A stretch of DNA of 59,757 nt, from positions 1 to 59,757 of the forward strand of contig REDR01000032.1 in the NCBI GenBank assembly GCA_007693385.1, written 5' to 3'. The notes under the pieces are model-generated. The model saw nothing but the letters and a program-made list of their open reading frames with translations, did no database searches and was not told the DNA's origin. Below, one piece after another: positions 13,326 through 30,951 of this stretch; the first letter of the stretch is position 1, and each line of letters begins with the position of its first letter. The translations under genes were made by a program, and so were the position numbers. The stretch is from Anaerolineaceae bacterium (lineage in GTDB: Bacteria; Chloroflexota; Anaerolineae; Aggregatilineales; Phototrophicaceae).

Positions 13326-13685
13326 ATGGCTCTACAACAGTTTGCGCCCATCGCGGCGTTGATTATATTGGCGGTTGTTTTAACGTTCATCATCAGCAAC
13401 ATCTCGACCATCTTCGGCCCTAGCAATAACACATCGCGCAAGACCGCCCCGTATGAAAGCGGTATGCAACCGATTGGCGTAGGTATGCGCCGGATGCCGG
13501 TCAAATTTTACTTGATTGGCGTGCTTTTCATCCTATTCGACATTGAAGTGATCTTCTTCTTGCCGTGGGCGGTGGTCTTTCGTGATCTCGGGTTCTACGG
13601 ATTGGCTGTAATGGGTTTATTCTTTTTCATACTGACTATTGGCTTAATATATGAGTGGAAGAAGGGTGCGTTGGAATGGGAGTAA
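13326..13685 (+). CDS. nuoA: NADH-quinone oxidoreductase subunit A
   Basis: 119 residues with three membrane helices. It is part of the membrane arm of complex I at the quinone-site junction. The family segments YESGMQPIG and the acidic [12 protein letters not shown] are present. First gene of the nuo operon; its 3' end overlaps nuoB by 10 bases. Confidence 0.97.
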
Positions 13686-14161
13686 CACCGAAATTAGGCA
13701 ATATGGGCGTCGTCACATCGACGGTTGAGGAAGCGGTGAACTGGGCGCGGACGGGCGCGACGTGGCCGCTTTTGTTCGGTTTGGCTTGCTGTGCAATTGA
13801 GTACATGAGTACACAGGCCGGTAATTATGATCTGGCACGCTTCGGCATGGAGTTGAACCGCGCCAGCCCGCGTCAGGCCGATTTGATGATTGTGGCCGGG
13901 CGCGTCACGCGCAAGATGGCGCCGGTGGTGCGCCAGCTCTATGACCAGATGGCCGACCCCAAGTGGGTGATTTCGATGGGAGACTGTGCATCGTGTGGCG
14001 GGGTTTATAACAATTACGCCATCGTGCAGGGGGTAGACGAGATCATACCGGTTGATGTGTACGTGGCCGGATGTCCGCCGCGCCCGGAACAGTTGATGCA
14101 CGGCATCCTGACATTGCACGAGAAGATTCGCGGCGAGCGCATCTCCGACTGGGCGAGCTAA
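13676..14161 (+). CDS. nuoB: NADH-quinone oxidoreductase subunit B
   Basis: 161 residues from the ATG at 13676; an in-frame start at 13655 would add MEEGCVG and is less likely. NuoB holds cluster N2, the last Fe-S centre before quinone. The ligands are visible as the tandem Cys-Cys in [16 protein letters not shown] and AGCPPRPE. The gene overlaps nuoA, consistent with translational coupling. Confidence 0.97.
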
Positions 14162-14230
14162 TTCAACGAAATTGACCTGTAGCTGGCCGCCTGCTGGCCG
14201 GCTGTGAGGGTTTTAAGGATAGAGAAGCCG

Positions 14231-14764
14231 ATGCAAATTCCAACACCATTAGACGCGGTAGAACATCTCAAAGCGCAGATGCCGGATGCGGTAGACGATG
14301 TACACATTTTCCGCGACGAGACGACCATCATCATCTTGCCGGAGAACGTGCCCGCCGTCCTGCGCTTCCTGCGCGATACGCCCGGACTGGTTTATAATTA
14401 CCTGTCCGACATCAGCGCGGTAGACTATTATCCAGATTACAGCCGTCCGGCGCGTTTCGGCGTGTCCTATCATCTGTATGCCCTGCTATATAGCCGCCGC
14501 TTGCGCGTCAAGACATTTGTCGATGAGGACGAGAGCATCCCGACGGTCACGAGCATCTGGCCGGGCGCTAACTGGCTAGAGCGCGAGATCATCGACATGA
14601 TGGGGATTCCGTTTGCGGATCATCCCGACCCGCGCCGCGTGCTGATGCCGAAGGACTGGGACGGCCACCCCCACCGCCGCGATTACCCGCTCGGTTACGA
14701 GACGGTGCAGTTCTCCTTTAACATCGAGGAGATCATGAAGCACAAGCCGTTCGCAAAAGAATAG
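14231..14764 (+). CDS. nuoC: NADH-quinone oxidoreductase subunit C
   Basis: 177 residues from the ATG at 14231 (MQIPTPL); a GTG at 14204 is a possible longer start. Peripheral-arm subunit next to NuoD. The family signature W-L-E-R-E-I-x-D-M-x-G-I and HPDPRRVLMPKDWDGHPHRRDYPL are present. NuoC and NuoD are separate genes, not fused. Confidence 0.96.
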   Translation: MQIPTPLDAVEHLKAQMPDAVDDVHIFRDETTIIILPENVPAVLRFLRDTPGLVYNYLSDISAVDYYPDYSRPARFGVSYHLYALLYSRRLRVKTFVDEDESIPTVTSIWPGANWLEREIIDMMGIPFADHPDPRRVLMPKDWDGHPHRRDYPLGYETVQFSFNIEEIMKHKPFAKE

Positions 14765-14785
14765 AGTGATTGAGGATTTAACGTT

Positions 14786-16039
14786 ATGACGGATATGATC
14801 GTAGGCGAAGAAACCCGCAAGATCGAGGCCAGTCTGGAAGAATTGCGCGGCCTTGTCACCGAACGCGCGATGACCGGCGAGACGATGCTCCTCAACATGG
14901 GGCCGCATCACCCCTCCACGCACGGCGTCTTGCGTCTTCTGCTGGAACTGGACGGCGAAGAGATCGTGACTTGCTTGCCCGATGTCGGCTTTTTGCATAC
15001 CGGCATCGAGAAGAACATCGAAGATAAGACATACGAAAAAGGCGTCACGCTGACTGACCGCATGGACTATCTATCGCCGATGTCGAACAACATGGTTTTC
15101 TGCATGGCGATTGAAAAGCTGGTTGATCTGGATGTGCCGGAACGCGGGCAGGTGATCCGCGTCATCTGTCTGGAACTATCGCGCATCGCCAGCCATCTGG
15201 TGTGGCTGGGCACGCAGGCGATTGACTTAGGCGCGATGAGCGTGTTTCTGTATTGCTTCCGTGAGCGCGAGAAAATTCTCGATATGTTCGAGATGCTCTC
15301 CGGCCAGCGCATGATGGGGTCTTACTTCCGTCCGGGCGGCGTCTGGCGCGACCTGCGCCCCGAATTTCTGCCCGCGCTGGAAGCGTTCCTTGAGGACTTC
15401 CCGCGCCGCGTAGACGACTACGAAGCGCTATTGACCAAAAACCCGATCTGGCTGGATCGCACGCAGGGCATCGGCATCATCGAGCCGGACATGGCCTTAG
15501 CGCTGGGTTTGAGTGGCGCGAGCTTGCGCGGTAGCGGCGTTAACTGGGACATCCGCAAGGCGACGCCATATAGCGGCTACGAGAAATATCAATTCAACGT
15601 GCCATTAGGCGAACACGGCGACGTGTATGATCGCTTCCTGTGTCGCATCTACGAGATGCGCGAGTGCATGAAGATCATCCGGCAGGCGGTCGATAATCTG
15701 CCCGACGGCGCGTTCCGTTCCGATGATCGCAAGTTCGTGCCGCCGCCCCGCCGTGAACTGGGGCAGAGCATGGAAGCGGTGATCCATCACTTCAAATTGT
15801 GGACGGAGGGCTTCAGCGCTCCCGACGAAGAAGTGTATGTCGCCATTGAAAGCCCGCGTGGAGAGATCGGCTGTTACCTGCACGGCACCGGCGGCAATAA
15901 GCCGCGTCGCGTCCGCTTCAAGACGCCATCTTTCATGCACATTCAAGCGCTGGAACACATGGCGCCCGGCCACTTCATCGCCGACTTGGTGGCGATGATC
16001 GGCAGTGTGGACATCGTACTCGGCGACTGTGACCGCTAG
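14786..16039 (+). CDS. nuoD: NADH-quinone oxidoreductase subunit D
   Basis: 417 residues. NuoD forms the quinone pocket with NuoB. The pocket motifs are present: GPHHPSTHG with the conserved His, and the Tyr in DRMDYLSPMSNN. The C-terminal SVDIVLGDCDR ends like the family. It starts 21 bases after nuoC. Confidence 0.97.
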   Translation: MTDMIVGEETRKIEASLEELRGLVTERAMTGETMLLNMGPHHPSTHGVLRLLLELDGEEIVTCLPDVGFLHTGIEKNIEDKTYEKGVTLTDRMDYLSPMSNNMVFCMAIEKLVDLDVPERGQVIRVICLELSRIASHLVWLGTQAIDLGAMSVFLYCFREREKILDMFEMLSGQRMMGSYFRPGGVWRDLRPEFLPALEAFLEDFPRRVDDYEALLTKNPIWLDRTQGIGIIEPDMALALGLSGASLRGSGVNWDIRKATPYSGYEKYQFNVPLGEHGDVYDRFLCRIYEMRECMKIIRQAVDNLPDGAFRSDDRKFVPPPRRELGQSMEAVIHHFKLWTEGFSAPDEEVYVAIESPRGEIGCYLHGTGGNKPRRVRFKTPSFMHIQALEHMAPGHFIADLVAMIGSVDIVLGDCDR

Positions 16040-16093
16040 GGCGCGTCGCCATCAAACAACGTATTGACGTTTGACCGGAGACAAGAAGATCGG

Positions 16094-16606
16094 ATGAGTG
16101 GTATGGCAAATCCATTAGCGGACAAATACGCGGATCGCATCCAGAAACACATGAGCAAATACCCCGACAAGCGCTCGGCGGTGATGCCTTTGCTGTACAT
16201 CGCACAGGAAGAATACGGCTGGCTATCGCCGGACGCTATCGTGCAGGTCGCTGAAATCTGCGAGATGGACCCGACGCAGGTCAAATCCATCGCCGGTTTT
16301 TATACCATGTACCGCGAATCGCCGAAGGGCAAATACTGGCTTCAGGTTTGCACCGACCTGCCCTGTGCGTTGAAGGGTGCTGACCAATTTCATCACGATC
16401 TGCTGGCGCATCTGGGCATCGAAGAAGGCGGCACGACCGATGACGGCATGTTCACCGTCGAGCATGTGATGTGTTTGGCCGCCTGTGACCGTGCGCCGAT
16501 GTTGCAGTGTAATTTTGGCTATGTCGAGAATCTGGACATGGACAAGATGAAGGAACTGCTGGACAAATGGCGCAAAGAGGCCGAAGCCTACGCTAACGCC
16601 GACTGA
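16094..16606 (+). CDS. nuoE: NADH-quinone oxidoreductase subunit E
   Basis: 170 residues from the ATG at 16094 (MSGMANPLA); an upstream TTG at 16064 is less likely. It is the thioredoxin-like subunit that binds the 2Fe-2S cluster N1a. The four ligands are in VCTDLPC and CLAACDRAP. It is part of the NADH dehydrogenase module with NuoF and NuoG. Confidence 0.95.
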   Translation: MSGMANPLADKYADRIQKHMSKYPDKRSAVMPLLYIAQEEYGWLSPDAIVQVAEICEMDPTQVKSIAGFYTMYRESPKGKYWLQVCTDLPCALKGADQFHHDLLAHLGIEEGGTTDDGMFTVEHVMCLAACDRAPMLQCNFGYVENLDMDKMKELLDKWRKEAEAYANAD

Positions 16607-16647
16607 GACACGGATTTATCGTAATTTTTTGAGAGAGAGAACCCGAC

Positions 16648-17937
16648 ATGACCCATATCATCTTACGTGAAAAAGATGTGCCCAATATCCGCGAGCTAGA
16701 CGTGTATCTGGCGAACGAAGGCTTCGACGGGCTGAAGAAAGCGGTCAGCATGAAACCGTCGGAGGTGATCGACGAAATGAAGCGCTCCAACCTGCGCGGG
16801 CGCGGCGGCGCGGGCTTCCCCACCGGCATCAAGTGGAGCTTCATCCCGCAGAGTGAGCCGGTCAAGTACGTGGTGGTCAACGCTGACGAGAGCGAGACCG
16901 GCACGTTCAAAGATCGCCAGATCATGGAGAATAACCCGTACCAGATGATCGAAGGCGCGTTGATCTGCGCTTACGCGATTCAGGCGACGGCGGTCTATAT
17001 CTATCTGCGCGGCGAATTCTGGGACATCGCGCATGATCTGGACGAGCGTATCGAAGCCGCCCGCGCTCAAAATCTGGTCGGCGATGACATTCTAGGCAGT
17101 GGCTATTCCTGCGAAGTGTATACGCATCTGGGCGCGGGCGCGTACATCTGCGGCGAGGAGAGCGCCTTGCTCAACAGTCTGGAAGGCTTGCTCGGTCAGC
17201 CGCGTGTGCGCCCGCCATTCCCCGCGCAGAAGGGCGGCGGCCTGTACAAAGAGCCGACAGTCGTCAACAACGTGGAGACGCTGGCGAATGCGCCGTATAT
17301 CCTGCGCGTCGGTGGCGAAAAATTCGCTGAACTGGGCACGCAACAAAGTACCGGCACCAAGGTCATCTGCGTGAGCGGCCACGTCAACAAGCCGGGCAAT
17401 TACGAGCTAGAGATGGGCAAGCACACCTTCCGCGACTTGATCTTCGAGATGGCGGGCGGCATCCCGGACGGCAAGGGCATCAAAGCGATTTTGCCTTCCG
17501 GCGGCTCCGGGCCGATTGTTCCGGCGACGGATGAAGTGCTGGACACTAAATTGACATACGAGGATTGCCAGAGCATCGACACCATTCTCGGCTCGGCGTC
17601 GGTGATGATTCTGGATGAGACCGTCGATATTACGTGGGCGGCGTCTAAGATGACCAAGTTCTTCAAGCATGAGAGCTGTGGCAAGTGTACGCCGTGCCGC
17701 GAGGGGACGTTCTGGCTGGATAAAGTGATTGACCGCATCCTGCGCGGGGAGGGCAAGCGGAGCGATGTAGAACTCATCAATAACGTGGCCGCCAACATGC
17801 AGGGCACGACGTTGTGCGCGTTGGGCGACTTCGCCGCCAATCCAATTCTGGCGACGATCCGCCACTTCCCCGAAGACTTTTACGCCCACGTAGACGGCGA
17901 CGACGAAAAAGCGCCGGTCAAGGCGGCGGGCGATTAA
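16648..17937 (+). CDS. nuoF: NADH-quinone oxidoreductase subunit F
   Basis: 429 residues. NuoF binds NADH, FMN and 4Fe-4S cluster N3. GRGGAGFPTG (nucleotide binding), NADESETGTFKDR (FMN region) and the cluster motif SCGKCTPCREG with a later Cys in GTTLCALGD are all present. A GAGAGAGAA-rich leader precedes the ATG. Confidence 0.97.
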   Translation: MTHIILREKDVPNIRELDVYLANEGFDGLKKAVSMKPSEVIDEMKRSNLRGRGGAGFPTGIKWSFIPQSEPVKYVVVNADESETGTFKDRQIMENNPYQMIEGALICAYAIQATAVYIYLRGEFWDIAHDLDERIEAARAQNLVGDDILGSGYSCEVYTHLGAGAYICGEESALLNSLEGLLGQPRVRPPFPAQKGGGLYKEPTVVNNVETLANAPYILRVGGEKFAELGTQQSTGTKVICVSGHVNKPGNYELEMGKHTFRDLIFEMAGGIPDGKGIKAILPSGGSGPIVPATDEVLDTKLTYEDCQSIDTILGSASVMILDETVDITWAASKMTKFFKHESCGKCTPCREGTFWLDKVIDRILRGEGKRSDVELINNVAANMQGTTLCALGDFAANPILATIRHFPEDFYAHVDGDDEKAPVKAAGD

Positions 17938-17955
17938 TCGTGCTAGCGCGGCGAT

Positions 17956-18294
17956 ATGATGACTGATTCTGCGGACGAAAAGCCGACGGAAACGGTTGCA
18001 GAACGGGGAATGTGGGGAAACTTCCGGCGATGGCTCGGACGGGGCGAGGACGACCTGCAAGATCGGCTCTTCGCGCTGGATGACGCCATCGCGCACCATC
18101 CCTCCACAGCGATCAATTACGTTTTAAGGGGTGAATGTTACCTGCAAATCGGGTATAACCAACTGGCCGAACGTGATTTTGAGCAGGCGCTCGAATTGGG
18201 GCGGTCTGCGTTAGCGCGTTCAGCGTGGGGCTTCGGCGCACAGGTCGCGCAGGATCGCGCCGTGCGCGGGCTACGAATCGCCCGTCGCCGTTAA
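17956..18294 (+). CDS. Small TPR-like protein inside the nuo operon
   Basis: 112 residues, not a known complex I subunit. The central segment INYVLRGECYLQIGYNQLAERDFEQALEL fits about one and a half tetratricopeptide repeats; a basic tail GLRIARRR ends it. It lies 18 bases after nuoF and 77 bases before nuoG, on the same strand. TPR units mediate protein contacts, so a role as an assembly factor or accessory subunit is inferred. Its codon use looks like that of the neighbours. Confidence 0.75.
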   Translation: MMTDSADEKPTETVAERGMWGNFRRWLGRGEDDLQDRLFALDDAIAHHPSTAINYVLRGECYLQIGYNQLAERDFEQALELGRSALARSAWGFGAQVAQDRAVRGLRIARRR

Positions 18295-18371
18295 TCGTCA
18301 ATCTGCTAGCGCATTGTGAAGGTGTTTAGTCTGGCTTTGGACGCAGATAAAATTGTGTGGAGAGACTGTAA

Positions 18372-20840
18372 ATGTCCGACAACATGGTGAAAATCATCAT
18401 TGATGATGTAGAGTATGAAGTCCCCGCCGGTATGAACGTGGTGGATGCCGCTAAGTGGCACGCCAGCAACGACATTCCGGTATTTTGTTATCATCCCAAG
18501 ATGGAACCGGTGGGCATGTGTCGCATGTGTCTGGTAGAGATGGGCACGCTCCAGCGCAACCCGGAAACCGGCGCGGTGATGACCGACGAAGACGGCAACC
18601 CGCTAGTGCGCTGGTTCCCCAAGTTGCAGACCGCCTGCACGCAGGTCGCTACCGATGGCATGGTGTTCCGCACCAATACGCAAGCCGTCGTGGATGCCCG
18701 CGAGAATGTGCTGGAATTTCTGCTGACCAGCCACCCGCTTGACTGCCCGATTTGCGATAAGGGCGGCGAGTGCCCGTTGCAGAATTTGACGATGGCGCAC
18801 GGTCCCGGCGAAAGCCGCATGAATTTCTCCGACAAGATGAAACTGGATAAGCACGTCCCGCTTGGCGATTTGATCTTCCTTGACGAAGAGCGCTGTATCC
18901 AGTGTGGGCGCTGTGTGCGCTTTCAGGATGAACTGGTCGGCGATGACGTGCTGGCCTTCCATGAACGCGGGCGCACGTTACAGATCATCACCAACAGCGA
19001 CCCCGGCTTCGATACGTATTTCTCCGGCAACACCACCGACATCTGTCCGGTGGGGGCGCTGACGACTGCCGACTTCCGCTTCGGGGCGCGGCCATGGGAA
19101 CTGACCGAAGTGCCCAGCATCGACCCGCACGACGCCGCCGGTTCGAACATCAGCCTGAGCGTGCGCCTTGACCGCGATTTCGGCGGGCGGGCGATGATTA
19201 AGCGCGTGATGCCGCGCCAGAACGAATATGTCAATGAGTTGTGGATTTCTGACAAGGCGCGTTTCGGCCATCACTTCACCCGTAGCGAAGACCGCCTGCA
19301 AAAGCCGGTGGTCGATGGCAAAGATAGCGACTGGGCGACGGCGATCAGCACGATTGCCGGTCTGCTGGAAGGCGCGGACGGCGACATCGCGGCGATTGCC
19401 GGTAGCGGCATGAGCAACGAAGACCTATTCGCCCTGCGGTCACTGGTGACCGCCAACGGCGGCAAGCGTCTGGGCGCGTGGCCGACCACCCACACCGGCG
19501 CTGATCTGGTGGCGGCGGTGGGCGTCGGCGTCGGCACGAATTTGAGCGATCTGGGCGCGGGCGATGCGGTGTTGATCGTCGCCAGCGACCTCGAAGAAGA
19601 AGTCCCGATCTGGCGTCTACGGCTGAAGGGGGCGCATGATCGCGGCGCGTATGTGGTCGTCGCCAACGCCCGCAAGACGCGCATGGACGATTTCGCGTCT
19701 GCTACGCCGCGCTATCAGGCGGGCAAGGCCGCCCACTGGCTGGACGGCATCGACAAGGCCGATCCCGAAGTCGCCAAAGCGCTCAAAGCGGCGCAGAACC
19801 TCGTCATCGTGGCCGGTGCGGAGGGCTTGACGCTGGACGGTAGCCGCGCCCTGATGCAATCCGCCGCGAACTTCCTGATCGATTCCGGACACTACGGCAA
19901 GGCCAACAACGGCCTGATGTCGCCGCTTCCGGGTCCGAATGGCATGGGCTTGCATTATGTCGGCTTCACGCCGGAAGTCACCGCCGACATCGCGCAGAAC
20001 CCGCCGAAGGTGTTGATCGTCGCGCAGGCCGAAATCCTGTCCGATGATCCGTATGCGCGGGCGTGGCTGGATAAAGTGGAGACCATCATCAGCCTGAATC
20101 TATTCCCCGATGCGGTGGCGGATATGGCCGCTATCGCGCTCCCGATTCAGAGCTTCGCGGAGCGTGACGGCACGTTCACCAACGGCGAGCGCCGCGTCCA
20201 GCGCTTCTACACCGCGCAGGGGCCGATGGGCGATGCCCTCCCCGCGTGGCAGGCGCTTTCGCGCATCAGCGAACACATGGGGCAGGGCAAAGCCAAAGCA
20301 TCCGCCGCCGCCGTCATGGTGATGATGAGCAATGAGCTTCCCGCCTTCGAGGGGATGCGCTACCGCGAACTATCCCGCACGGAGCGCCAGTTCCCCGACA
20401 TTAGCGGCGATGATATGTACTACGGCGGCACCGCCTATCAGAACAAGGGCGGTCTGGGTAAGGTCATCCCGACGACGGCGGAGCAGGGCGAGACGCCCGC
20501 CCGCGCTGATGTCAGCTTGCCGCCGGTGCTGGAAGTCGGTAAGGGGCAATTTGTGGTATTACCGGCCACCCGCCTATATAATCTGGAAAGTACGTTCCGC
20601 CCGTCCACGCTGGTACACCCGCGCATCATGTCGCCCTTTGTGGAAGTCAACGCGGCGGATGCCGCCCGTCTGGACATCAACAACGGCGATGTGGTCGAGG
20701 TCAAGTTGCCGGATGTGTCGGTACGGGTGCGGGCGTCGGTGAATGGCGGTGCGCCGGAGGGCGCTCTGGTATTGCCGCGCCATTTGACGGACGACCCCAC
20801 GCCGATGACCGTGGCCGTCGGCGAGATCGCCAAAGTATAG
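18372..20840 (+). CDS. nuoG: NADH-quinone oxidoreductase subunit G
   Basis: 822 residues. The N-terminal 2Fe-2S domain has CYHPKMEPVGMCRMC and a later TACTQV. The His-Cys cluster motif is HPLDCPICDKGGEC, and a 4Fe-4S motif CIQCGRC with CPVGALT follows. The molybdopterin-oxidoreductase-like domain fills the rest, as in other NuoG. The region that in several bacteria carries cluster N7 (pattern CxHCxxGC) reads VPSIDPHDAAGSNISL (residues about 244-259), so N7 is absent. The TPR-like gene precedes it. Confidence 0.96.
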   Translation: MSDNMVKIIIDDVEYEVPAGMNVVDAAKWHASNDIPVFCYHPKMEPVGMCRMCLVEMGTLQRNPETGAVMTDEDGNPLVRWFPKLQTACTQVATDGMVFRTNTQAVVDARENVLEFLLTSHPLDCPICDKGGECPLQNLTMAHGPGESRMNFSDKMKLDKHVPLGDLIFLDEERCIQCGRCVRFQDELVGDDVLAFHERGRTLQIITNSDPGFDTYFSGNTTDICPVGALTTADFRFGARPWELTEVPSIDPHDAAGSNISLSVRLDRDFGGRAMIKRVMPRQNEYVNELWISDKARFGHHFTRSEDRLQKPVVDGKDSDWATAISTIAGLLEGADGDIAAIAGSGMSNEDLFALRSLVTANGGKRLGAWPTTHTGADLVAAVGVGVGTNLSDLGAGDAVLIVASDLEEEVPIWRLRLKGAHDRGAYVVVANARKTRMDDFASATPRYQAGKAAHWLDGIDKADPEVAKALKAAQNLVIVAGAEGLTLDGSRALMQSAANFLIDSGHYGKANNGLMSPLPGPNGMGLHYVGFTPEVTADIAQNPPKVLIVAQAEILSDDPYARAWLDKVETIISLNLFPDAVADMAAIALPIQSFAERDGTFTNGERRVQRFYTAQGPMGDALPAWQALSRISEHMGQGKAKASAAAVMVMMSNELPAFEGMRYRELSRTERQFPDISGDDMYYGGTAYQNKGGLGKVIPTTAEQGETPARADVSLPPVLEVGKGQFVVLPATRLYNLESTFRPSTLVHPRIMSPFVEVNAADAARLDINNGDVVEVKLPDVSVRVRASVNGGAPEGALVLPRHLTDDPTPMTVAVGEIAKV

Positions 20841-20916
20841 CATGTAGTGGCGGGTGATCGGTCATGACGATCCATCACCCGTATCGGTTGGTTTGAACTG
20901 TGTCGAGGATATAAAC

Positions 20917-23079
20917 ATGCAAGATGCCGTACAGCAAAGCACGACAAATCGCGTATCGACTATCGACATCACCGTGTTTCTGGTCGCCGCGTTGTTACCA
21001 GTATTTTTCATCTTCATGCCGTGGTTCGAGGGGTATCCGGCCATCAGCTATCTGGTAGACCTCGCCGCGCCGGAGGGCTTCGGCTTCGACACAGCGTTGA
21101 TGTGGCTGTTGCCGTTGTCGATCACCGGCATTGTCACGTTTGCCCTGTGGGGGGCGGCGGATGTCCACGCGACCAGCTTCACGCCGCGTTTTGTGGCGGG
21201 CTTCGCCGGTCTGGGATTGCTCTATTTCGTGTCCGTCCTGCTGGGGCTGGGCTTCGATTCCATCGGGCGCTTCTCCCAGTTCACGCTGATCCCCATCAAC
21301 ACATTTGACAGCATCACCACCATACGCGGCGGGGCGAGCTTCCTGCCGTTGATGATCTTGATGATCTTTCTGGTGTTGCAGGTCGCCTATCCGCGAGAGG
21401 TCGGCGAGCGTCCGGCGGGCGAAGAACCGCCCCTGATGCTGGGCTTCATCCCGATGTTGCCGTTCTCGGTGGGCTTCTTCATCGCTAATTTCGTGCTGTT
21501 CTTCATTCTGGCGAACTGGGGCGCGGTGCTGAACGCGGGCGACAGCGTGCTGTCATTCGCTTTTGATCGCAACCGTGTGATTGATCCGGTGATGTGTGCG
21601 GATTCGACGGGCTGTTCGTTCGCCCATCCCATCGTGTTCACGCTGATCGTGCTGGCGGTGGTGATTACCGGCTTCGCCTACACCACGCTGTTAGAGCGCA
21701 AGCTGATCGCGTGGTTCCAACAGCGCTCCGGGCCGAATCGTGTCGGGCCGGGCGGCTTCCTGCAACCGGCGGCGGACGGCCTGAAGCTGATCTTCAAGGA
21801 GAACATCCTGCCATCACAGGCCGACAAGGGCGTTTATCGCATCGCGCCGATGCTGAAAGCGATCCCGACGCTGGTCGTGTTAGCGGTTATCCCGATGGGG
21901 CCGGATATTGTCATCCCGTGGTTTGATGGCAACTGGTATCAAGTGCCGCTAGTGCTGGCTAATCCTAGCGTCGGCGTGTTGTTCCTGCTGGCCGTGACCA
22001 GTATTTCGACTTACGGCGTGGTGCTGGCGGGCTGGGCGAGCAACAATAAATATTCGATGCTAGGCGGGATGCGTGCCGCGTCGCAGATGGTCAGCTACGA
22101 GCTGAGCATGGGCATCACCTTCGCCGTGCCGGTGCTGATCGCCGGTTCGATGTCGCTGGTGACTATCGTGCAAGATCAGGGCGGCCTGTTCGTCAACTGG
22201 TACGTCTTCCAGAACCCGTTAGCCGCGTTAATCCTGCTGGTTGCGCTGGTGGCGGAGACTAACCGCGCCCCGTTCGATCTGCCGGAAGCGGAACAAGAAT
22301 TGACCGCCGGTTACATGACCGAATATAGCGGTATGAAATTCGCGCTGTTCATGATGGCCGAATATCTCGGCATGATCGCGGTGAGCTTCATCGCGGTGAC
22401 GCTGTTCTTCGGCGGGTATCATGACGGCTTCGGGCTGGTGGACTACATCCCGATTTTGGGGCCGCTGGTCATTGGCGGTAAGGTCATCCTGTGCTTGATC
22501 GGCTTCGTGTGGTTGCGTGCGACTTTGCCGCGCCTGCGCTATGATCGCCTGATGATGCTGGGCTGGAAGGTCTTGCTTCCGTTGGCGTTGCTCAGCGTGG
22601 TGTGGACGGCGGTAGCGGTGGTCGTCGGCGAGACATTCGGCACGACGGCTTACCTGATCGCCTCAAACGGTCTGGCGTTGCTCGTCCTGCTCGGCTCGAT
22701 CATCTTCTTAGGCCGTCCGCAACCGGAAGACGAAGGCGACGACATCGAAGATGATGCGGTCATCACCGGCGAGCGTGACGGGCTGGCTTGGGGTATCCTG
22801 ACGCTGATCGGCGGGCTGATCGCCGTGCCGATGGCGCTATATAACCTGACCGCGCCGTTGATCGGCCTGCTGTGGGCGGTGGTCACGGTGCCGGTGCTGG
22901 CCTTGTTCAACATCGGCGAGAACCGCGAGCGCTTCCGCAGTGGTCTGTTGACCGTCGTCGAGCCGCTAGCCGAACTCGGCCCGCCGGAGGAAGAAGCGCC
23001 CGCGCTGACCGCCGGTGACGATCCGCAGATCGAGGCGGGCGAGGACGCCGACGCGCCGCAGTTACAAGACGGTGAGTAA
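20917..23079 (+). CDS. nuoH: NADH-quinone oxidoreductase subunit H with large N- and C-terminal extensions
   Basis: 720 residues from the ATG at 20917, chosen because GAGGAT lies at the right distance; usual NuoH is about 320-420. The core (about 237-560) is intact: LLERKLIAWFQQRSGPNRVGP and ETNRAPFDLPEAEQEL. Ahead of it are about 235 residues with roughly five or six hydrophobic helices (VFLVAALLPVFFIFMPW, TALMWLLPLSITGIV and others). After it come about 150 residues with about three more helices, an acidic linker EDEGDDIEDD and an acidic tail. I see no frameshift, so this is a genuine long subunit. Confidence 0.95.
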   Translation: MQDAVQQSTTNRVSTIDITVFLVAALLPVFFIFMPWFEGYPAISYLVDLAAPEGFGFDTALMWLLPLSITGIVTFALWGAADVHATSFTPRFVAGFAGLGLLYFVSVLLGLGFDSIGRFSQFTLIPINTFDSITTIRGGASFLPLMILMIFLVLQVAYPREVGERPAGEEPPLMLGFIPMLPFSVGFFIANFVLFFILANWGAVLNAGDSVLSFAFDRNRVIDPVMCADSTGCSFAHPIVFTLIVLAVVITGFAYTTLLERKLIAWFQQRSGPNRVGPGGFLQPAADGLKLIFKENILPSQADKGVYRIAPMLKAIPTLVVLAVIPMGPDIVIPWFDGNWYQVPLVLANPSVGVLFLLAVTSISTYGVVLAGWASNNKYSMLGGMRAASQMVSYELSMGITFAVPVLIAGSMSLVTIVQDQGGLFVNWYVFQNPLAALILLVALVAETNRAPFDLPEAEQELTAGYMTEYSGMKFALFMMAEYLGMIAVSFIAVTLFFGGYHDGFGLVDYIPILGPLVIGGKVILCLIGFVWLRATLPRLRYDRLMMLGWKVLLPLALLSVVWTAVAVVVGETFGTTAYLIASNGLALLVLLGSIIFLGRPQPEDEGDDIEDDAVITGERDGLAWGILTLIGGLIAVPMALYNLTAPLIGLLWAVVTVPVLALFNIGENRERFRSGLLTVVEPLAELGPPEEEAPALTAGDDPQIEAGEDADAPQLQDGE

Positions 23080-23100
23080 TTCAAGAAGGGTTGTAATTTT

Positions 23101-23595
23101 ATGAACATCATCAAGGGATTTGCCACAACGTTCAAACATCTCCGCGAGGAGAGCATCACCTTGCAATATCCGGAGCAGGTGCGCCCGTTTCAGGAGCGCT
23201 TCAAAGGGCGGCATCACCTGCGCCGTTACGACAACGGGCTGGAGAAGTGCATCGGCTGTTCGCTGTGTTCCGCCGCGTGTCCGGCGGACGCTATCTGGGT
23301 AGAGGCCGCCGAGAACAACGACGAACAGCGCTTCAGTCCGGGTGAGCGTTACGCCAAGACGTATGAGATCAACATGCTTCGTTGTATCTTCTGCGGCTAT
23401 TGCGAAGACGCCTGCCCGACGCAGGCCATCGAACTCGGCCACGAGCATCAAATGAGCTTCACGGATCGGCGCGATTCGATCTTCACTAAAGAGATGTTGA
23501 TCGACGCGGTGCCGGAAGGCGGCCAACCGACGCCGCAAAAAGTCGAGGCGGGCGCGTTTGATCGCGCCATCCCGGACATGCCTGATCCGAAGTAG
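23101..23595 (+). CDS. nuoI: NADH-quinone oxidoreductase subunit I
   Basis: 164 residues. It carries 4Fe-4S clusters N6a and N6b through CIGCSLCSAACP and CIFCGYCEDACP. It relays electrons from NuoG to NuoB. The N-terminal amphipathic helix (IIKGFATTFKHL) rests on the membrane arm. Confidence 0.97.
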   Translation: MNIIKGFATTFKHLREESITLQYPEQVRPFQERFKGRHHLRRYDNGLEKCIGCSLCSAACPADAIWVEAAENNDEQRFSPGERYAKTYEINMLRCIFCGYCEDACPTQAIELGHEHQMSFTDRRDSIFTKEMLIDAVPEGGQPTPQKVEAGAFDRAIPDMPDPK

Positions 23596-23696: not shown

Positions 23697-25004
23697 ATGT
23701 CGATAGAAGTCGTTTTGTTCATCGTTATTGGACTGGTTGCCCTGTTTTCTGCGGGGATGATGGTCGTCGTGACCAACGCGGTACACAGTGCGCTGTACCT
23801 CATCTTGAACTTCGCCTGTGTCGCGTTCCTTTACCTGTTGCTGGATGCGCCATTTCTGGCGCTGGTGCAGGTCGCCGTGTATGCCGGTGCGATCATGGTT
23901 TTATTCCTGTTCGTCATCATGTTGCTTGGCGCGGAACGTACCTTCCGTGAGATGCGTCAATTCAAGTGGCTCGCGCCGCTAACGCTGACGCTCTCGATCT
24001 CATTTTTCATCGTGTTATTTCTGGTGATGGATCGTGGCGGCATGGATGACCTGACCGTGCCACCGGACGCGCCGATGTTGCGCGTCGTCAATACCACGCC
24101 GGACTTCGTGGAGGCGGATTTCTTCCTCAATGGCGAATTATTCGCTGAGGGCGTGCCGTTTGGCGGCACGACAGACCGCCACAACGCGCATTTCCGCGAG
24201 GTAGAACCCGGCGACTATACGCTGGGCATCGCGCAGGCGGGCGGGGAGGGGCGTCCGTTGCCATTGGGGACATTCAGCATCGCGCCCGACGAAGCGCTGA
24301 CCTTGCTGACCTATGGCATCATCGGTAGCGGCATCAACCCCACTTTCTTGACCATTCCCGAAGACATCAACTATTACACCGAAAGCGGCGGGCGGACGGT
24401 CATCGTCAACGCCTTCGCCGATCAACCGGTGAGCGTGGTCGATGCCGGATCGAACCGACGGCTAGAATCCGGCGAAGCGGCGAACGCGCCGTTGATCGTC
24501 GCCGGTCTGGGCGTGGGTGAGGCCACCGAGATGGCGCTGGAGCGTACCGGAAACCGGAATTGGGTCTTTGTCGATACCGCCGCCGACGGCACGCCGACAG
24601 ATCGCATCATCGGGCGCACCGATCAGGCGTTCAACATCCAGCAAGGGCACACGAACCTGTTCATTCTGGCGCGTGATCGTGATGGCGACACGCTGACGCC
24701 GGTTGTGGTCACGGTGCAAACGCGCACCCTGCCGCAGTTCGGTAGCGCGGAGGCCATCGGCCAGACGCTATTCACCGATTACCTGCTACCGTTCCAGCTG
24801 GTGGCGGTGCTGTTGCTGGCGGCGATGGTGGGCGCTATTGTGCTGACGCAACGGGCGGACATCAAACCGAAGCCCGGACGCCCGACGCGCCGCAAGGTGA
24901 GCCGTCCGCTGACCAGCGTCATCGCGGCGCAGACAGGCCACTCTATCGCCGCTAGCGATGACGACGAACCACAGGTCGAAGTTCCGCCCGCGACGGGTGA
25001 CTAA
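23697..25004 (+). CDS. nuoJ: NADH-quinone oxidoreductase subunit J with inserted DUF4397-like domain
   Basis: 435 residues; usual NuoJ is about 165-200. Helices 1-4 are at the N-terminus (VVLFIVIGLVALFSA through SFFIVLFLVM, about 1-118). The last helix (LPFQLVAVLLLAAMVGAIVL) is at about 364-383. Between them lie about 230 residues that are not part of the family. They contain MLRVVNTTPDFVEADFFLNG and later TVIVNAFADQPVSVVDAGS, a pattern matching DUF4397 beta-sandwich domains in secreted proteins. NuoJ topology puts this loop on the outer face. A basic then acidic tail (about 390-435) follows the last helix. Confidence 0.93.
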   Translation: MSIEVVLFIVIGLVALFSAGMMVVVTNAVHSALYLILNFACVAFLYLLLDAPFLALVQVAVYAGAIMVLFLFVIMLLGAERTFREMRQFKWLAPLTLTLSISFFIVLFLVMDRGGMDDLTVPPDAPMLRVVNTTPDFVEADFFLNGELFAEGVPFGGTTDRHNAHFREVEPGDYTLGIAQAGGEGRPLPLGTFSIAPDEALTLLTYGIIGSGINPTFLTIPEDINYYTESGGRTVIVNAFADQPVSVVDAGSNRRLESGEAANAPLIVAGLGVGEATEMALERTGNRNWVFVDTAADGTPTDRIIGRTDQAFNIQQGHTNLFILARDRDGDTLTPVVVTVQTRTLPQFGSAEAIGQTLFTDYLLPFQLVAVLLLAAMVGAIVLTQRADIKPKPGRPTRRKVSRPLTSVIAAQTGHSIAASDDDEPQVEVPPATGD

Positions 25005-25028: not shown

Positions 25029-25331
25029 ATGGTCGAAGTTGAAGCCTTTATTGTCCTCAGTGCCGCCCTTTTCATTCTGGGCGCGATGGGCGTGGTGCTA
25101 CGCCGGAACGCGATTCTGGTCTTCATGTCGGTGGAGTTGATGCTGAACGCCGCGAATCTCGCGCTGGTGGCGTTCGCGTGGCACTGGGGCGGCATGGATG
25201 GGCACATTTTCGTTTTCTTTGTGATTACAGTTGCGGCGGCAGAGGTGGCGGTCGGTCTGGCGCTGATTGTGGCGATCTTCCGCTCCCGTCAAAGTATCAA
25301 CATTGACGAATTACACTTGATGGAAGGGTAA
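25029..25331 (+). CDS. nuoK: NADH-quinone oxidoreductase subunit K
   Basis: 100 residues, three membrane helices, standard length. The two buried glutamates of the proton path are present in VELMLNAANLAL and AAAEVAVGLAL. Starts 24 bases after nuoJ. Confidence 0.97.
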   Translation: MVEVEAFIVLSAALFILGAMGVVLRRNAILVFMSVELMLNAANLALVAFAWHWGGMDGHIFVFFVITVAAAEVAVGLALIVAIFRSRQSINIDELHLMEG

Positions 25332-25380
25332 TGTCGGCGCGACATAACCGACAAGGCATCTCGTTGAAGGGCTTGATCTT

Positions 25381-27834
25381 ATGGAGAATCTAGCGCAAAT
25401 CGCACCGTTGATTATCCTGTTCCCGGCTATCGGCGCGTTCATCAATTTCTTCTGGGGCGCGAAGATGGGAGAAGGTGCGTCCGCGATGGTGGGGACGGTG
25501 GCTTCGGGGTCGTCATTTCTGGTGGCGCTCGGCCTGCTGGCCTACTTGACCGGCAACGGATTTAACCCGGCGGTCATCAATCCGCCCCTGCTGGATAGCT
25601 GGATACGGATTGATTCAGTCGGATTAGATATATCGTGGCAAACGCGGGTGGATACGCTCAGCGTCAGCATGACGTTATTCGTGACGTTCGTCGGCACGCT
25701 GATCCACATTTACGCGGCGGGTTATATGCACGGCGACCCGCGCTTTTCGCGTTTCTTCGCTTATCTCAATATGTTTTTGGCCTTCATGCTCATCCTCGTG
25801 ATGGGCAATAACCTGCTGATGATGTTCGTCGGCTGGGAAGGCGTTGGATTGTGTTCTTATCTGCTGATTAGCTTCTGGTGGGATAAGCCGGGCGGCGAAG
25901 GCATCGCCAACAGCAACGCCGGACGCAAAGCGTTCATCGCTAACCGCGTCGGCGACTTCGGCGTGCTGATAGCGATTTTCCTGTCGTTCTGGGCGTTTGG
26001 CACGCTGGATTATTACAAGCCGAACGAAATCCCCAACCCGCAAGTGAGCGCGGCGCATCTCGAAGAAGAGACCGACTCCAGTCGGGTGTTCTACTCCTTC
26101 GCGGATGAAGATGTGGAGATGTCGCAGTTGGGCATGTTCGGGCAGGTGGCGCGTTACGTCCGCATCGACGAAGCGGCGTCCGTGTCGCTGGATAACGCCC
26201 GCACCATCCTGAATCAAGCACGCGGCACCGGCGATGAGCAACTGATCGCGCAGGCCGAAGCCTTGCTAGAGACCACCCGCGCCGAAGCGGACGCCAACCG
26301 GCCACAGTTCAACATCGGCCCGGCGACGTTCGGCATCGGCACACTGTTGACGCTCATCACGCTGTTCATGCTGTTAGGCGTGACCGGCAAATCCGCGCAG
26401 ATACCGCTTTTCGTGTGGTTGCCGGATGCGATGGCCGGGCCGACTCCGGTCAGCGCCCTCATCCACGCCGCGACGATGGTCACGGCGGGCGTCTATATGA
26501 TGGTGCGCTCTAATATCATGTTCCATCATGCGGAACTGACATCGATCATCGTGGCGCTGATCGGCGCGACGACGGCGCTGGTGGCGGGGTTCATCGCCAT
26601 CGGCCAATTCGACATCAAGCGCGTGCTGGCCTACAGTACCATCAGCCAGCTTGGTTTCATGGTGGCGGCGGTGGGCTTGGGTGCGTATGTGGCGGCGATG
26701 TTCCACATGATAACCCACGCCTTCTTTAAGGCTCTGCTGTTTTTGGGTAGCGGCTCGGTCATTCACGGCATGGAACACGGACATCATCACGTCCACCTGC
26801 ACGACGCCGACCATCCCGAAGCGGTCACGCATGACTCGCACGACGACGACGGCTTCGACCCGCAAGATATGCGCTATATGGGCGGTCTGCGCGAGAAGAT
26901 GCCGGTTACGTACTGGACATATCTATTCGGCACGATTGCGCTGGCCGGTATCTGGCCGTTCGCCGGTTTCTGGTCGAAAGACGAAATTCTGCTGGATGCG
27001 TGGTATGTCGGCTTCGAGAAGGGGCTGTTTCAAGGCTTCATCGTGCTAGGCTTGCTGTTCGCGGCGGCGGCGTTCACCGCGTTCTATATGTGGCGTCAGA
27101 TCGAGATGGTATTTCATGGCAAACCACGCCACGAAGCCGCCGAACACGCCAGCGAAAGCTCCCGCTCTATGACGATCCCGCTTGTCATTCTGGCATTCTT
27201 CGCGCTGTTCGTCGGCTTTATCAACATCCCGAGCGGCATCGGCTTCCCGTTCACGTTCGGATTAGAAGGCGTGCTGGGCGTGCATCTGCTGGGTGACTTC
27301 CTTGAGTACAGCATCTTCGCGGAGGCGTTCAACCTGTTGACGTTCAACGCGCTGATCGCGATTCCGGCGCTGGCCGTCGGCATCGGCGGCATTCTGGCCG
27401 CGCGTTCGGTCTACGGCGGCGGTAAGGCGATTGACGCGAGCGGGCAAGACCCGCTACAGGCCGACCCGAACACCGCGTTGGTGTGGAACGTGGCCTATGC
27501 GCGGATGTACTGGGACGAGATTTACTTTGCGCTGATTATCAATCCGTATATCCGGATTGCTGATTTCCTGTACGAAGTGGTCGATTGGGGTTTCCTGCAC
27601 GACTACTTCCACGATTCCGTACTGATACGCGGCTATCGCTCGATGGGCGATCTGCTAGCCCGTCCGTTTGATCTGGGTATCATTGACGGGGCGGTGAACG
27701 GTCTGGGGTGGTTGGCTGGCCGCATCGGTGGCGGCCTGCGCCTGACGCAGACCGGTTATGTTCGTACTTACGCCGTTGCGTTGTTGCTTGGTGTCGTAGC
27801 GGTCATCATTTTGATGCTACTGCCACTGATTTAA
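25381..27834 (+). CDS. nuoL: NADH-quinone oxidoreductase subunit L, long form
   Basis: 817 residues; usual NuoL is about 600-700. It is the distal antiporter-like proton-channel subunit. GWEGVGLCSYLLI (with the key Glu) and GKSAQIPLFVWLPDAM are present. Two additions stand out: a hydrophilic loop of about 110 residues (about 205-316, with IDEAASVSLDNARTIL), of which some 65 are extra by my estimate, and a His/Asp-rich stretch near 462-492 (GHHHVHLHDADH, HDSHDDDG). The C-terminal lateral-helix and final helix region is present. Confidence 0.95.
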   Translation: MENLAQIAPLIILFPAIGAFINFFWGAKMGEGASAMVGTVASGSSFLVALGLLAYLTGNGFNPAVINPPLLDSWIRIDSVGLDISWQTRVDTLSVSMTLFVTFVGTLIHIYAAGYMHGDPRFSRFFAYLNMFLAFMLILVMGNNLLMMFVGWEGVGLCSYLLISFWWDKPGGEGIANSNAGRKAFIANRVGDFGVLIAIFLSFWAFGTLDYYKPNEIPNPQVSAAHLEEETDSSRVFYSFADEDVEMSQLGMFGQVARYVRIDEAASVSLDNARTILNQARGTGDEQLIAQAEALLETTRAEADANRPQFNIGPATFGIGTLLTLITLFMLLGVTGKSAQIPLFVWLPDAMAGPTPVSALIHAATMVTAGVYMMVRSNIMFHHAELTSIIVALIGATTALVAGFIAIGQFDIKRVLAYSTISQLGFMVAAVGLGAYVAAMFHMITHAFFKALLFLGSGSVIHGMEHGHHHVHLHDADHPEAVTHDSHDDDGFDPQDMRYMGGLREKMPVTYWTYLFGTIALAGIWPFAGFWSKDEILLDAWYVGFEKGLFQGFIVLGLLFAAAAFTAFYMWRQIEMVFHGKPRHEAAEHASESSRSMTIPLVILAFFALFVGFINIPSGIGFPFTFGLEGVLGVHLLGDFLEYSIFAEAFNLLTFNALIAIPALAVGIGGILAARSVYGGGKAIDASGQDPLQADPNTALVWNVAYARMYWDEIYFALIINPYIRIADFLYEVVDWGFLHDYFHDSVLIRGYRSMGDLLARPFDLGIIDGAVNGLGWLAGRIGGGLRLTQTGYVRTYAVALLLGVVAVIILMLLPLI

Positions 27835-27850
27835 TTGGGGAGCAAAAAAC

Positions 27851-29425
27851 ATGCCTGAAGCACTCTCAGTTGGTTCGAGCTTATCCTTGACCACCATCAC
27901 GCTTTTCTTGCCGATGGTGGGTTTGACTATCCTGCTCTTTATGAACGAAGAGAAGGATAAAGACGCGATCAAGTGGACGGCGTTCGGCTTCACGATTGCC
28001 ACGTTCATCGCTTCGCTGTTGATGGCCTTTAACTTCGATGTCAACGATGCCGGTTTGCAGATGGCACAGCGCAACGACTGGTTGCCGCAACTGGGCATCA
28101 GCTACTTCGTCGGCGTTGATGGCCTTAGTATGTTGATGGTGTTGCTATCGACGATCATCATGCCGATTGCGGTGATGGCTTCTTTCCGCGCTGGCGTGCT
28201 GGAAGAACGCGGACGTAGCAAGCTGTACTATATCTTCATGCTGTTGCTGGAATGGGCGATGATCGGCGTCTTTGTGGTGCAAGACCTCATCATCTTCTAC
28301 ATCTTCTGGGAAGTGACGCTGGTGCCCATGTACTTCTTGATCGGCATCTGGGGCGCGGAGAACCGCGTGTATGCCGCCGTCAAGTTCTTCCTGTACACGA
28401 TGGCCGGTTCGATTTTGATGTTGCTGGCGATCCTGTACGTCGGCAACGCGGCGGGCACGTTCGCCGTGCCGGAAATCATCGCCGGTGTCCAGAGCGGGCA
28501 ATTGACCTTCGTCATGGACGGCGTATTCAGCGAGCAATCGTTCCTGTTCCTCGGCTTCTTGATCGCGTTCGCTATTAAAGTCCCGATCTGGCCGCTTCAT
28601 AGCTGGTTGCCGGACGCACACGTGCAAGCGCCGACGGCTGGCTCGGTTGTTCTGGCCGGTGTCCTGCTGAAGATGGGTACGTACGCGATGATCCGCTTCA
28701 ACCTGCCGATGTTCCCCGAAGCGTCCGTCACATGGGCGCCGGTGGTGGCCGGTCTCGGTGTCATCGGCATCATTTACGGCGCGTGGGTGTGCTACGCGCA
28801 GACCGACATGAAGAAGCTGGTCGCGTATTCATCGGTCAGCCATCTCGGTTTTGTGGTGCTGGGTATCTTCTCGCTGACGCCGCAGGGCATTCAGGGCGCG
28901 ACGATCCAGATGATTAGTCACGGTATCAGCACCGGCGGCTTGTTCTTGATGGTCGGTATGCTGTACGAGCGCCGCCATACCAAGCTGATGGCGGCCTATG
29001 GCGGCATCTGGAAGGCGATGCCGGTATTCGGCGGTATCGGCCTGATTATCTCGCTATCGAGCATGGGCTTGCCCGGCTTGAATGGCTTCGTCGGCGAATT
29101 CACCATCTTGCTCGGCGCGATTGGTAGCGGCGTGCTGGGGATCGGCTTCGCGCTGGTCGCCACCGTCGGCGTCATTCTGGCGGCGGTCTACATCCTCAAG
29201 ATGTTTCAGGCGATTTTCATGGGCGAGCTAGACAAAGAAGAGAACATGAACCTGCCGGACCTACACTGGCAAGAGATCGCGGTGCTGGTGCCCATCCTGC
29301 TGTTGATCTTCTGGATCGGCCTACAGCCGTCGGCATGGTTCGATATGCTGGACGCGACGACGGCCAGTTTGATCGCAGGGATTGCCGACTTTGCGCCGGA
29401 GATCATCGTTCAGGCCGGTTCATAA
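27851..29425 (+). CDS. nuoM: NADH-quinone oxidoreductase subunit M
   Basis: 524 residues, standard antiporter-like subunit. The channel residues are visible: Glu in FWEVTLVPMYFLIG, Lys in AIKVPIWPLHSWLPDAH, and Lys in VLLKMGTY. It starts 16 bases after nuoL. Confidence 0.97.
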   Translation: MPEALSVGSSLSLTTITLFLPMVGLTILLFMNEEKDKDAIKWTAFGFTIATFIASLLMAFNFDVNDAGLQMAQRNDWLPQLGISYFVGVDGLSMLMVLLSTIIMPIAVMASFRAGVLEERGRSKLYYIFMLLLEWAMIGVFVVQDLIIFYIFWEVTLVPMYFLIGIWGAENRVYAAVKFFLYTMAGSILMLLAILYVGNAAGTFAVPEIIAGVQSGQLTFVMDGVFSEQSFLFLGFLIAFAIKVPIWPLHSWLPDAHVQAPTAGSVVLAGVLLKMGTYAMIRFNLPMFPEASVTWAPVVAGLGVIGIIYGAWVCYAQTDMKKLVAYSSVSHLGFVVLGIFSLTPQGIQGATIQMISHGISTGGLFLMVGMLYERRHTKLMAAYGGIWKAMPVFGGIGLIISLSSMGLPGLNGFVGEFTILLGAIGSGVLGIGFALVATVGVILAAVYILKMFQAIFMGELDKEENMNLPDLHWQEIAVLVPILLLIFWIGLQPSAWFDMLDATTASLIAGIADFAPEIIVQAGS

Positions 29426-29445
29426 GCGCGGCATAGGGGAGTCTC

Positions 29446-30951
29446 ATGATTGATGTTCCAAGTATTGCAGACCTGAACCTGACCGTTACGTTTCCGGCGG
29501 TGTTTCTGGCGCTGTTCACGATGGTTGTGCTGATCGTTGATCTGTTCATCCCGAAGGATCGCAAAATCCGCACCGCGCACCTGACGCTCGGTGGGCTGGT
29601 GGTCGCCTTCGTGTGGAATGTGCTGGTCTTCGATAGTAACCAGACCGCGCTAGGCGGCATGTACATCGCGGATTCGTTCAGCGGGTTTATCAACTTCATC
29701 GCGTTGACGGCGGCCATCATCACCTGCTTCCTGAGCGTGGACTACCTCAAGCGCACCGGCATCGAGCAGGGCGAGTTTTACTCGTTGTTGCTGTTCTCGA
29801 CGGCGGGCGTGATGTTCATGGGCGCGGCCAGCGATTTGATCGTGGTATTCATCGCGCTGGAAATCCTCAGCATCCCGCTTTACGTCATGGCCGCTATGCG
29901 CTACCGTGACGCGAAATCAGAAGAAAGCGGTTTGAAGTATTTCATTCTCGGCGCGTTCGCCAGCGCGTTCTTCCTGTATGGCGCGGCGCTGGTCTACGGC
30001 GCGACGGGCACAACCTCCCTGCCGGAAATCTTCGCATCAGTGGAGGGCATCGTCGCCACCGATAGCGGGGCGCGGTTGTATCTGGTATTGGGCGCGGCCT
30101 TGATCTTCGTCGGGCTGGGCTTCAAAGTGGCGGTTGTACCGTTCCATATGTGGACGCCGGACGTTTACGAAGGCGCACCGACTCCGGTCACCGCGTTCAT
30201 GAGCGTGGCGGCGAAGGCGGGCGGTTTCGCCGCGCTGTTGCGTCTGATGGTCATCGCCTTGCCGGAACTGACGGCCAATATCGGCGACACCATCGCCATC
30301 TGGCAGACCACTATCGCCATTGTCGCCGCCGCGACGATGATCTTAGGTAATTTCGTCGCCATCGTGCAGACCAACGTCAAGCGTATGCTGGCGTATTCGT
30401 CCATCGCGCACGCCGGTTACATCCTGATGGGTGTGGCGGCGGTGGGCACAATCGGCGTCGCAGAAGAAGCCACCCGCGCCGCGTTGATCTACATGCTGGC
30501 GTATACCTTCACCAATCTCGGCGCGTTCGCGGTGGTGATGGCGCTGGAAAAGGACGACGGAAGCGGCACGCAGATTGCAGACTTCAAAGGACTCAGCCGC
30601 AGTCGGCCTTTGCTGGCGGTGATGATGGCCTTCTTCATGCTCAGCTTGACCGGCGTGCCGACCACTGCCGGATTCATCGGCAAATTCTTGCTGTTCGGCG
30701 CGGCGCTGGAGGCCGGTCTGGTTCTGCTGACGATCATCGGTGTGCTGACGAGTGTGGTCAGCGCGTACTACTATGTGCGGATTATCGTCAATATGTATCT
30801 GGAAGACGGCGAAGGCGATCCGGCGGAGGGCGCGACGCAATATCTGAATTACGCGACCTATGCCGCGTTTGCCGGTACGCTCATCATCGGCCTGTTCCCG
30901 TTCCTAGCGGTCAATCTGCTGGATACGATGATGATTGCCGGTCTGTTTTAG
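29446..30951 (+). CDS. nuoN: NADH-quinone oxidoreductase subunit N
   Basis: 501 residues. Third antiporter-like subunit; ALEILSIPLYVMAAM and KVAVVPFHMWTPDVYEGAPTP are diagnostic. Standard length. Last gene of the nuo operon. Confidence 0.97.
   Translation: MIDVPSIADLNLTVTFPAVFLALFTMVVLIVDLFIPKDRKIRTAHLTLGGLVVAFVWNVLVFDSNQTALGGMYIADSFSGFINFIALTAAIITCFLSVDYLKRTGIEQGEFYSLLLFSTAGVMFMGAASDLIVVFIALEILSIPLYVMAAMRYRDAKSEESGLKYFILGAFASAFFLYGAALVYGATGTTSLPEIFASVEGIVATDSGARLYLVLGAALIFVGLGFKVAVVPFHMWTPDVYEGAPTPVTAFMSVAAKAGGFAALLRLMVIALPELTANIGDTIAIWQTTIAIVAAATMILGNFVAIVQTNVKRMLAYSSIAHAGYILMGVAAVGTIGVAEEATRAALIYMLAYTFTNLGAFAVVMALEKDDGSGTQIADFKGLSRSRPLLAVMMAFFMLSLTGVPTTAGFIGKFLLFGAALEAGLVLLTIIGVLTSVVSAYYYVRIIVNMYLEDGEGDPAEGATQYLNYATYAAFAGTLIIGLFPFLAVNLLDTMMIAGLF

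Follow-up and report, generated by a model that had tools for sequence, protein, structure and literature searches.

Background

Complex I is usually described as having 14 strongly conserved core subunits, to which mitochondria add complexity in the form of separate accessory proteins. The core subunit NuoJ has five transmembrane (TM) helices in an N-out/C-in orientation in E. coli (PMC4604451), which places its TM4-TM5 loop outside. In the mammalian form, ND6, the TMH4-5 loop is on the side of the intermembrane space; there ND6 is contacted by NDUFA1, NDUFA13 and NDUFS5, and NDUFA1 connects two subassemblies (PMC8762328). ND6-TMH4 and the loop vary among species, and ND6-TMH4 has been suggested to be functionally unimportant (PMC9977279). 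In the mammalian peptide transporters PepT1 and PepT2 (SLC15A1/A2), an outer loop contains an inserted extracellular domain of tandem Ig-like units that binds trypsin; transport persists when this domain is removed (PMC4597091). An earlier note on the DNA studied here proposed that a NuoJ carries a DUF4397-like domain in its outer loop and knew of no described complex I of this kind. No description of DUF4397 with complex I, or of a NuoJ with an accessory domain, was found in the searchable literature; the single paper combining NuoJ, Chloroflexus and insertion was a genome report.

An interrupted NuoJ in a complete operon

The window (the whole stretch of DNA analysed, 59,757 nucleotides from an Anaerolineaceae bacterium) contains a complete nuoA-N operon on the forward strand. 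The ORFs upstream of nuoJ, nuoA to nuoI, span 13326-23595, with starts at 13326 (nuoA), 13655 (nuoB), 14204 (nuoC), 14786 (nuoD), 16064 (nuoE) and 16648 (nuoF), all six named from sequence only, and at 18372 (nuoG), 20854 (nuoH) and 23101 (nuoI), assigned from ORFs and Pfam. A small TPR-like gene (17956-18294), identified in the same way, occupies the interval between nuoF and nuoG. Downstream, nuoK, nuoL, nuoM and nuoN (25029-30951, +) were likewise assigned from ORFs and Pfam. Flanked by nuoI and nuoK, nuoJ (23697-25004, +) is a single open frame of 435 aa with no stop and no frameshift.

The NuoJ family profile Oxidored_q3 (PF00499) matched this protein with 136.4 bits against a cut-off of 33.2, in two stretches, the best at residues 19-113. 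The pieces on either side of the interruption correspond to profile positions 2-96 and 104-146, indicating that the whole NuoJ is present and only interrupted. The NCBIfam NuoJ equivalogs also matched in two pieces and stayed below their whole-protein cut-offs (NF005165, 114.6 vs 192; NF005164, 113.1 vs 154), which places the protein outside these curated subfamilies. Similar to ordinary bacterial NuoJ/ND6 (PF00499), it has five TMs, the conserved TM3 and TM5 motifs and the expected position in a nuo operon; however, ordinary Chloroflexota NuoJ proteins (roughly 160-240 aa) have a short TM4-TM5 linker, where the window NuoJ has about 230 residues more.

An AlphaFold2 model built on an alignment of 43 relatives had a mean pLDDT of 81, with most of the insert above 90. 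Helices were predicted for TM1 (residues 3-24; 23703-23768, also seen in hydropathy), TM2 (28-48; 23778-23840), TM3 (52-78; 23850-23930, with the conserved YAGAIMVLFLFVIMLLGAE in the alignment), TM4 (92-113; 23970-24035) and TM5 (351-387; 24747-24857), a long helix with the conserved motif FGSPxxIGxxLFTxYLLPF. The model aligned over residues 1-390 with solved NuoJ/NdhG chains, but with a high rmsd. Since the helices at 92-113 and 351-387 flank an all-beta block, the insert (about 120-349) is predicted to form the TM4-TM5 loop, and together with the two Oxidored_q3 pieces this confirmed the proposed split of NuoJ between helices 4 and 5 by about 230 residues.

Apart from the unusual length of the protein, nothing suggested that the architecture is an artefact, that is, a frameshift, a chimeric assembly or a wrong start fusing two genes. 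Only two of the full-length relatives listed lacked an open long frame, and well over 100 separate assemblies shared the architecture, including a genome consisting of one contig of 5,631,885 bases, whose NuoJ has 482 aa (G027; L050). We therefore consider the probability of an artefact, which the earlier note had named as a possible refutation, to be negligible.

The insert as a tandem DUF4397 domain

DUF4397 (PF14344) was matched at residues 127-221 with 32.9 bits, above the gathering cut-off of 30.6. The match recurred in all 43 long relatives at E <= 0.01 (best E 1.5e-24) and reached 83.9 bits in the NuoJ of G039, so that the absence of any such match, the other refutation foreseen, did not materialise. 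This match lies in unit 1 (residues 120-226; 24054-24374), a predicted beta-sandwich. Unit 2 (227-349; 24375-24743) is predicted to be a diverged DUF4397-like beta-sandwich; taken alone it had no Pfam DUF4397 match above cut-off, and it is tied to unit 1 through profile-profile comparison only (hhalign 95.9%, E 6e-9). The two halves are thus homologous, and the insert is a tandem in which one unit is recognisable and the other has diverged. Where the earlier note had left open one or two DUF4397 units, two is the better count, with the Pfam match confined to unit 1. Folded in isolation, residues 120-349 again gave two beta-sandwiches (pLDDT 93.5, pTM 0.90). Insert length ranged from 215 to 301 residues in relatives.

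Among solved structures, the predicted insert by far best matched the extracellular domain of mammalian PepT2/PepT1 (Z 15.1; rmsd 3.1 A; 177 of 189 residues aligned, at about 10% identity), followed at lower scores by the single-domain matches HGSNAT and AlgF (Z 8.5-10.7) and by transthyretin-like proteins (Z about 7). Both the modelled insert and the PepT1/PepT2 domain are tandem Ig-like sandwiches set into an outer loop of a polytopic membrane protein, the outer side for NuoJ being taken from E. coli topology, whereas the hosts differ, a POT/MFS peptide transporter in one case and NuoJ in the other. The modelled likeness concerns the fold and the way in which the domain is inserted, from which common descent does not follow, and trypsin recruitment by the insert is not expected in these bacteria. 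The nearest structural relative of this domain in a bacterial respiratory subunit is one likewise inserted in an unrelated human transporter.

Free DUF4397 proteins encoded in the same genomes share the profile match and the tandem pairing of a strong with a weak unit, but they have signal-like N-termini and more units, whereas NuoJ embeds one pair between two TM helices. Two such proteins of the window's genome (L079, L080) carry signal-like N-termini and repeated tandem units, which in one of them are followed by repeats that by eye resemble SH3.

Distribution and history of the insert

By counts made by hand from the table, 135 of the 154 genomes of the order carried the long NuoJ, in five families and with some copies broken by contig ends; the conservation of the insert in relatives that the earlier note had anticipated was thereby confirmed. 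The remainder comprised ten genomes with an ordinary NuoJ (families f2, f5 and f6, and genome G439 of f3), three with weak matches only and six with none. A full-length match was absent from the other orders of the class (396 genomes drawn) and from the rest of the phylum as sampled (301 genomes). In the contig search, the best 14 loci of those listed (L084-L097) all belonged to Anaerolineae/Chloroflexi. The window's genome also encodes a second, ordinary NuoJ of 172 aa, and the insert is confined to the 14-subunit operon. This second copy belongs to another complex I-like cluster (L078; G000:C127:5000-24000), which had no match to the window NuoI.

On a tree of NuoH, NuoL and NuoM (55 rows, rooted on outgroup orders), the NuoJ lengths required two changes, one gain and one loss; the long branches (L109, L131) concerned the outgroup only. 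The loss occurred in G439, which has a normal 204-aa NuoJ (L166:3241-3855) with the FGSP junction kept. The insert was lost cleanly there, while related genera of its family retain it, and the otherwise normal nuo operon stretch indicates that the insert is dispensable in that lineage. G439 also had no COX1 match. Overall, we regard it as nearly certain that this NuoJ is functional and accommodates a tandem DUF4397 (Ig/transthyretin-like) domain in its outer TM4-TM5 loop, and that the domain was acquired a single time, by the ancestor of five families within one Anaerolineae order, and has been retained since. A bacterial lineage has put a folded domain into a core subunit, beside the connecting subdomain between NuoH and NuoN. 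The role of the domain is directly testable, given its single gain, its clean loss and the ordinary paralogue in the same genome.

Pairwise dN/dS (Nei-Gojobori style, own script, saturated pairs left out) was 0.055-0.60 in the insert, compared to 0.043-0.23 in the remainder of NuoJ (TM core), so the insert is constrained by purifying selection yet evolves faster than the core. The majority of the conserved insert columns were also typical of the free DUF4397 proteins in these genomes. N238 and D249 in unit 2 and the F348-G349 junction were specific to NuoJ, in a comparison in which only a modest number of free unit-2 sequences aligned.

Location and possible role of the insert

The location of the loop on the outer face, as proposed earlier, agreed with the E. 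coli NuoJ topology (PMC4604451) and with charge: among 43 sequences the insert was acidic (median net charge -24), while the C-terminal tail was slightly basic (+2). We infer from both that the insert lies on the outer face of the membrane.

The role that we rate most likely, although it stays on the tentative side, is that of a built-in accessory domain that braces or shields the outer face of the membrane arm. The tandem domain would rest on this face at the junction of NuoH/NuoA with NuoJ/NuoK, where mammals added the intermembrane-space subunits NDUFA1, NDUFA8, NDUFA13 and NDUFS5, and would take no part in electron transfer or proton pumping. These mitochondrial heel subunits share with the insert a position on the outer face near ND6, including the TMH4-5 loop (PMC8762328); however, they are separate helical or CX9C proteins, whereas the insert is all-beta with no CX9C pair and no cysteine in residues 120-349. 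The accessory reading is favoured by the contacts of the mammalian ND6 loop with separate subunits in the same area (PMC8762328), by the NuoJ-specific positions N238 and D249, and by the wide retention, the two tree changes and the purifying selection. It is weakened by the mostly generic DUF4397 nature of the conserved residues, by the faster evolution and variable length of the insert, and by the clean loss in G439.

An alternative explanation is that the outer TM4-TM5 loop is simply permissive, and that a self-folding domain there is harmless or adds solubility with no specific task. In another Chloroflexota class, two loci (L164:1225-2220, -; L165:1597-2592, +) encode a 331-aa NuoJ whose TM4-TM5 loop carries an unrelated insert of roughly 125 residues, which suggests that this loop has received domains repeatedly. 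In Pfam, this protein weakly matched the P2 response regulator binding domain. The one clean loss and the variability of the ND6-TMH4 position, suggested to be functionally unimportant (PMC9977279), are also consistent with mere tolerance. However, retention in five families with a single documented loss, under purifying selection, and the NuoJ-specific conserved positions of unit 2 make this explanation unlikely.

The main rival of the accessory domain is docking, in which the exposed tandem sandwich would bind a cell-wall polymer, a secreted protein or another respiratory complex in a PepT-like manner. Its fold and mode of insertion are those of the PepT1/PepT2 extracellular domain, a trypsin binder dispensable for transport (PMC4597091), the insert is strongly acidic and fast-evolving, and the free DUF4397 proteins encoded in the window's genome appear to be secreted. 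However, the conservation analysis of the insert found no conserved surface site, and as the conserved residues are mostly generic for DUF4397, no docking site is evident. ActD, a marker of alternative complex III (ACIII), was present in only 3 of the 17 genomes tested that carry the insert, compared to 3 of 7 insert-free ones, and Phototrophicus methaneseepsis has been reported to lack ACIII (PMC8941918); docking to ACIII was therefore not supported. COX1 was found in 131 of the 135 genomes with the insert and in 5 of the 10 without it (Fisher p 6e-5), an association that is confounded by ancestry and not strict, as four insert-bearing genomes lacked COX1, and an aerobic link was rejected on these grounds. 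With ActD absent from most insert-bearing genomes and the conserved residues mostly generic, the external docking or supercomplex stabilisation offered by the earlier note could not be established, and we consider docking possible at best. It is improbable, at about the level of mere tolerance, that NuoJ acts as a surface receptor whose tandem DUF4397 anchors or positions complex I at a specific partner in the cell wall or outside the cell. To our knowledge, a core subunit with such a role has been found in no complex I.

Neighbouring subunits

No consistent partner emerged among the candidates ActD, COX1 and NuoH helices. NuoH of the window (20854-23079, 741 aa) has about 250 extra N-terminal residues with five further predicted TM helices and no Pfam match in this part, and a C-terminal extension that adds extra helices; the versions in relatives are smaller. 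An obligate pairing of the insert with extra NuoH helices was rejected, as family f3 carries the insert but no tenth helix, and the ninth is already present in insert-free relatives. Similarly, the N-terminal extension is large in f1 only and is thus not required by the insert. In NuoL (25381-27834, 817 aa), residues from about 214 to 306 form an additional hydrophilic stretch, whose length varies in relatives. In family f4 (L071:3754-4893, L073:3602-4765), a gene of about 380 aa, by eye similar to D-Ala-D-Ala ligase (ATP-grasp), lies between nuoI and nuoJ.
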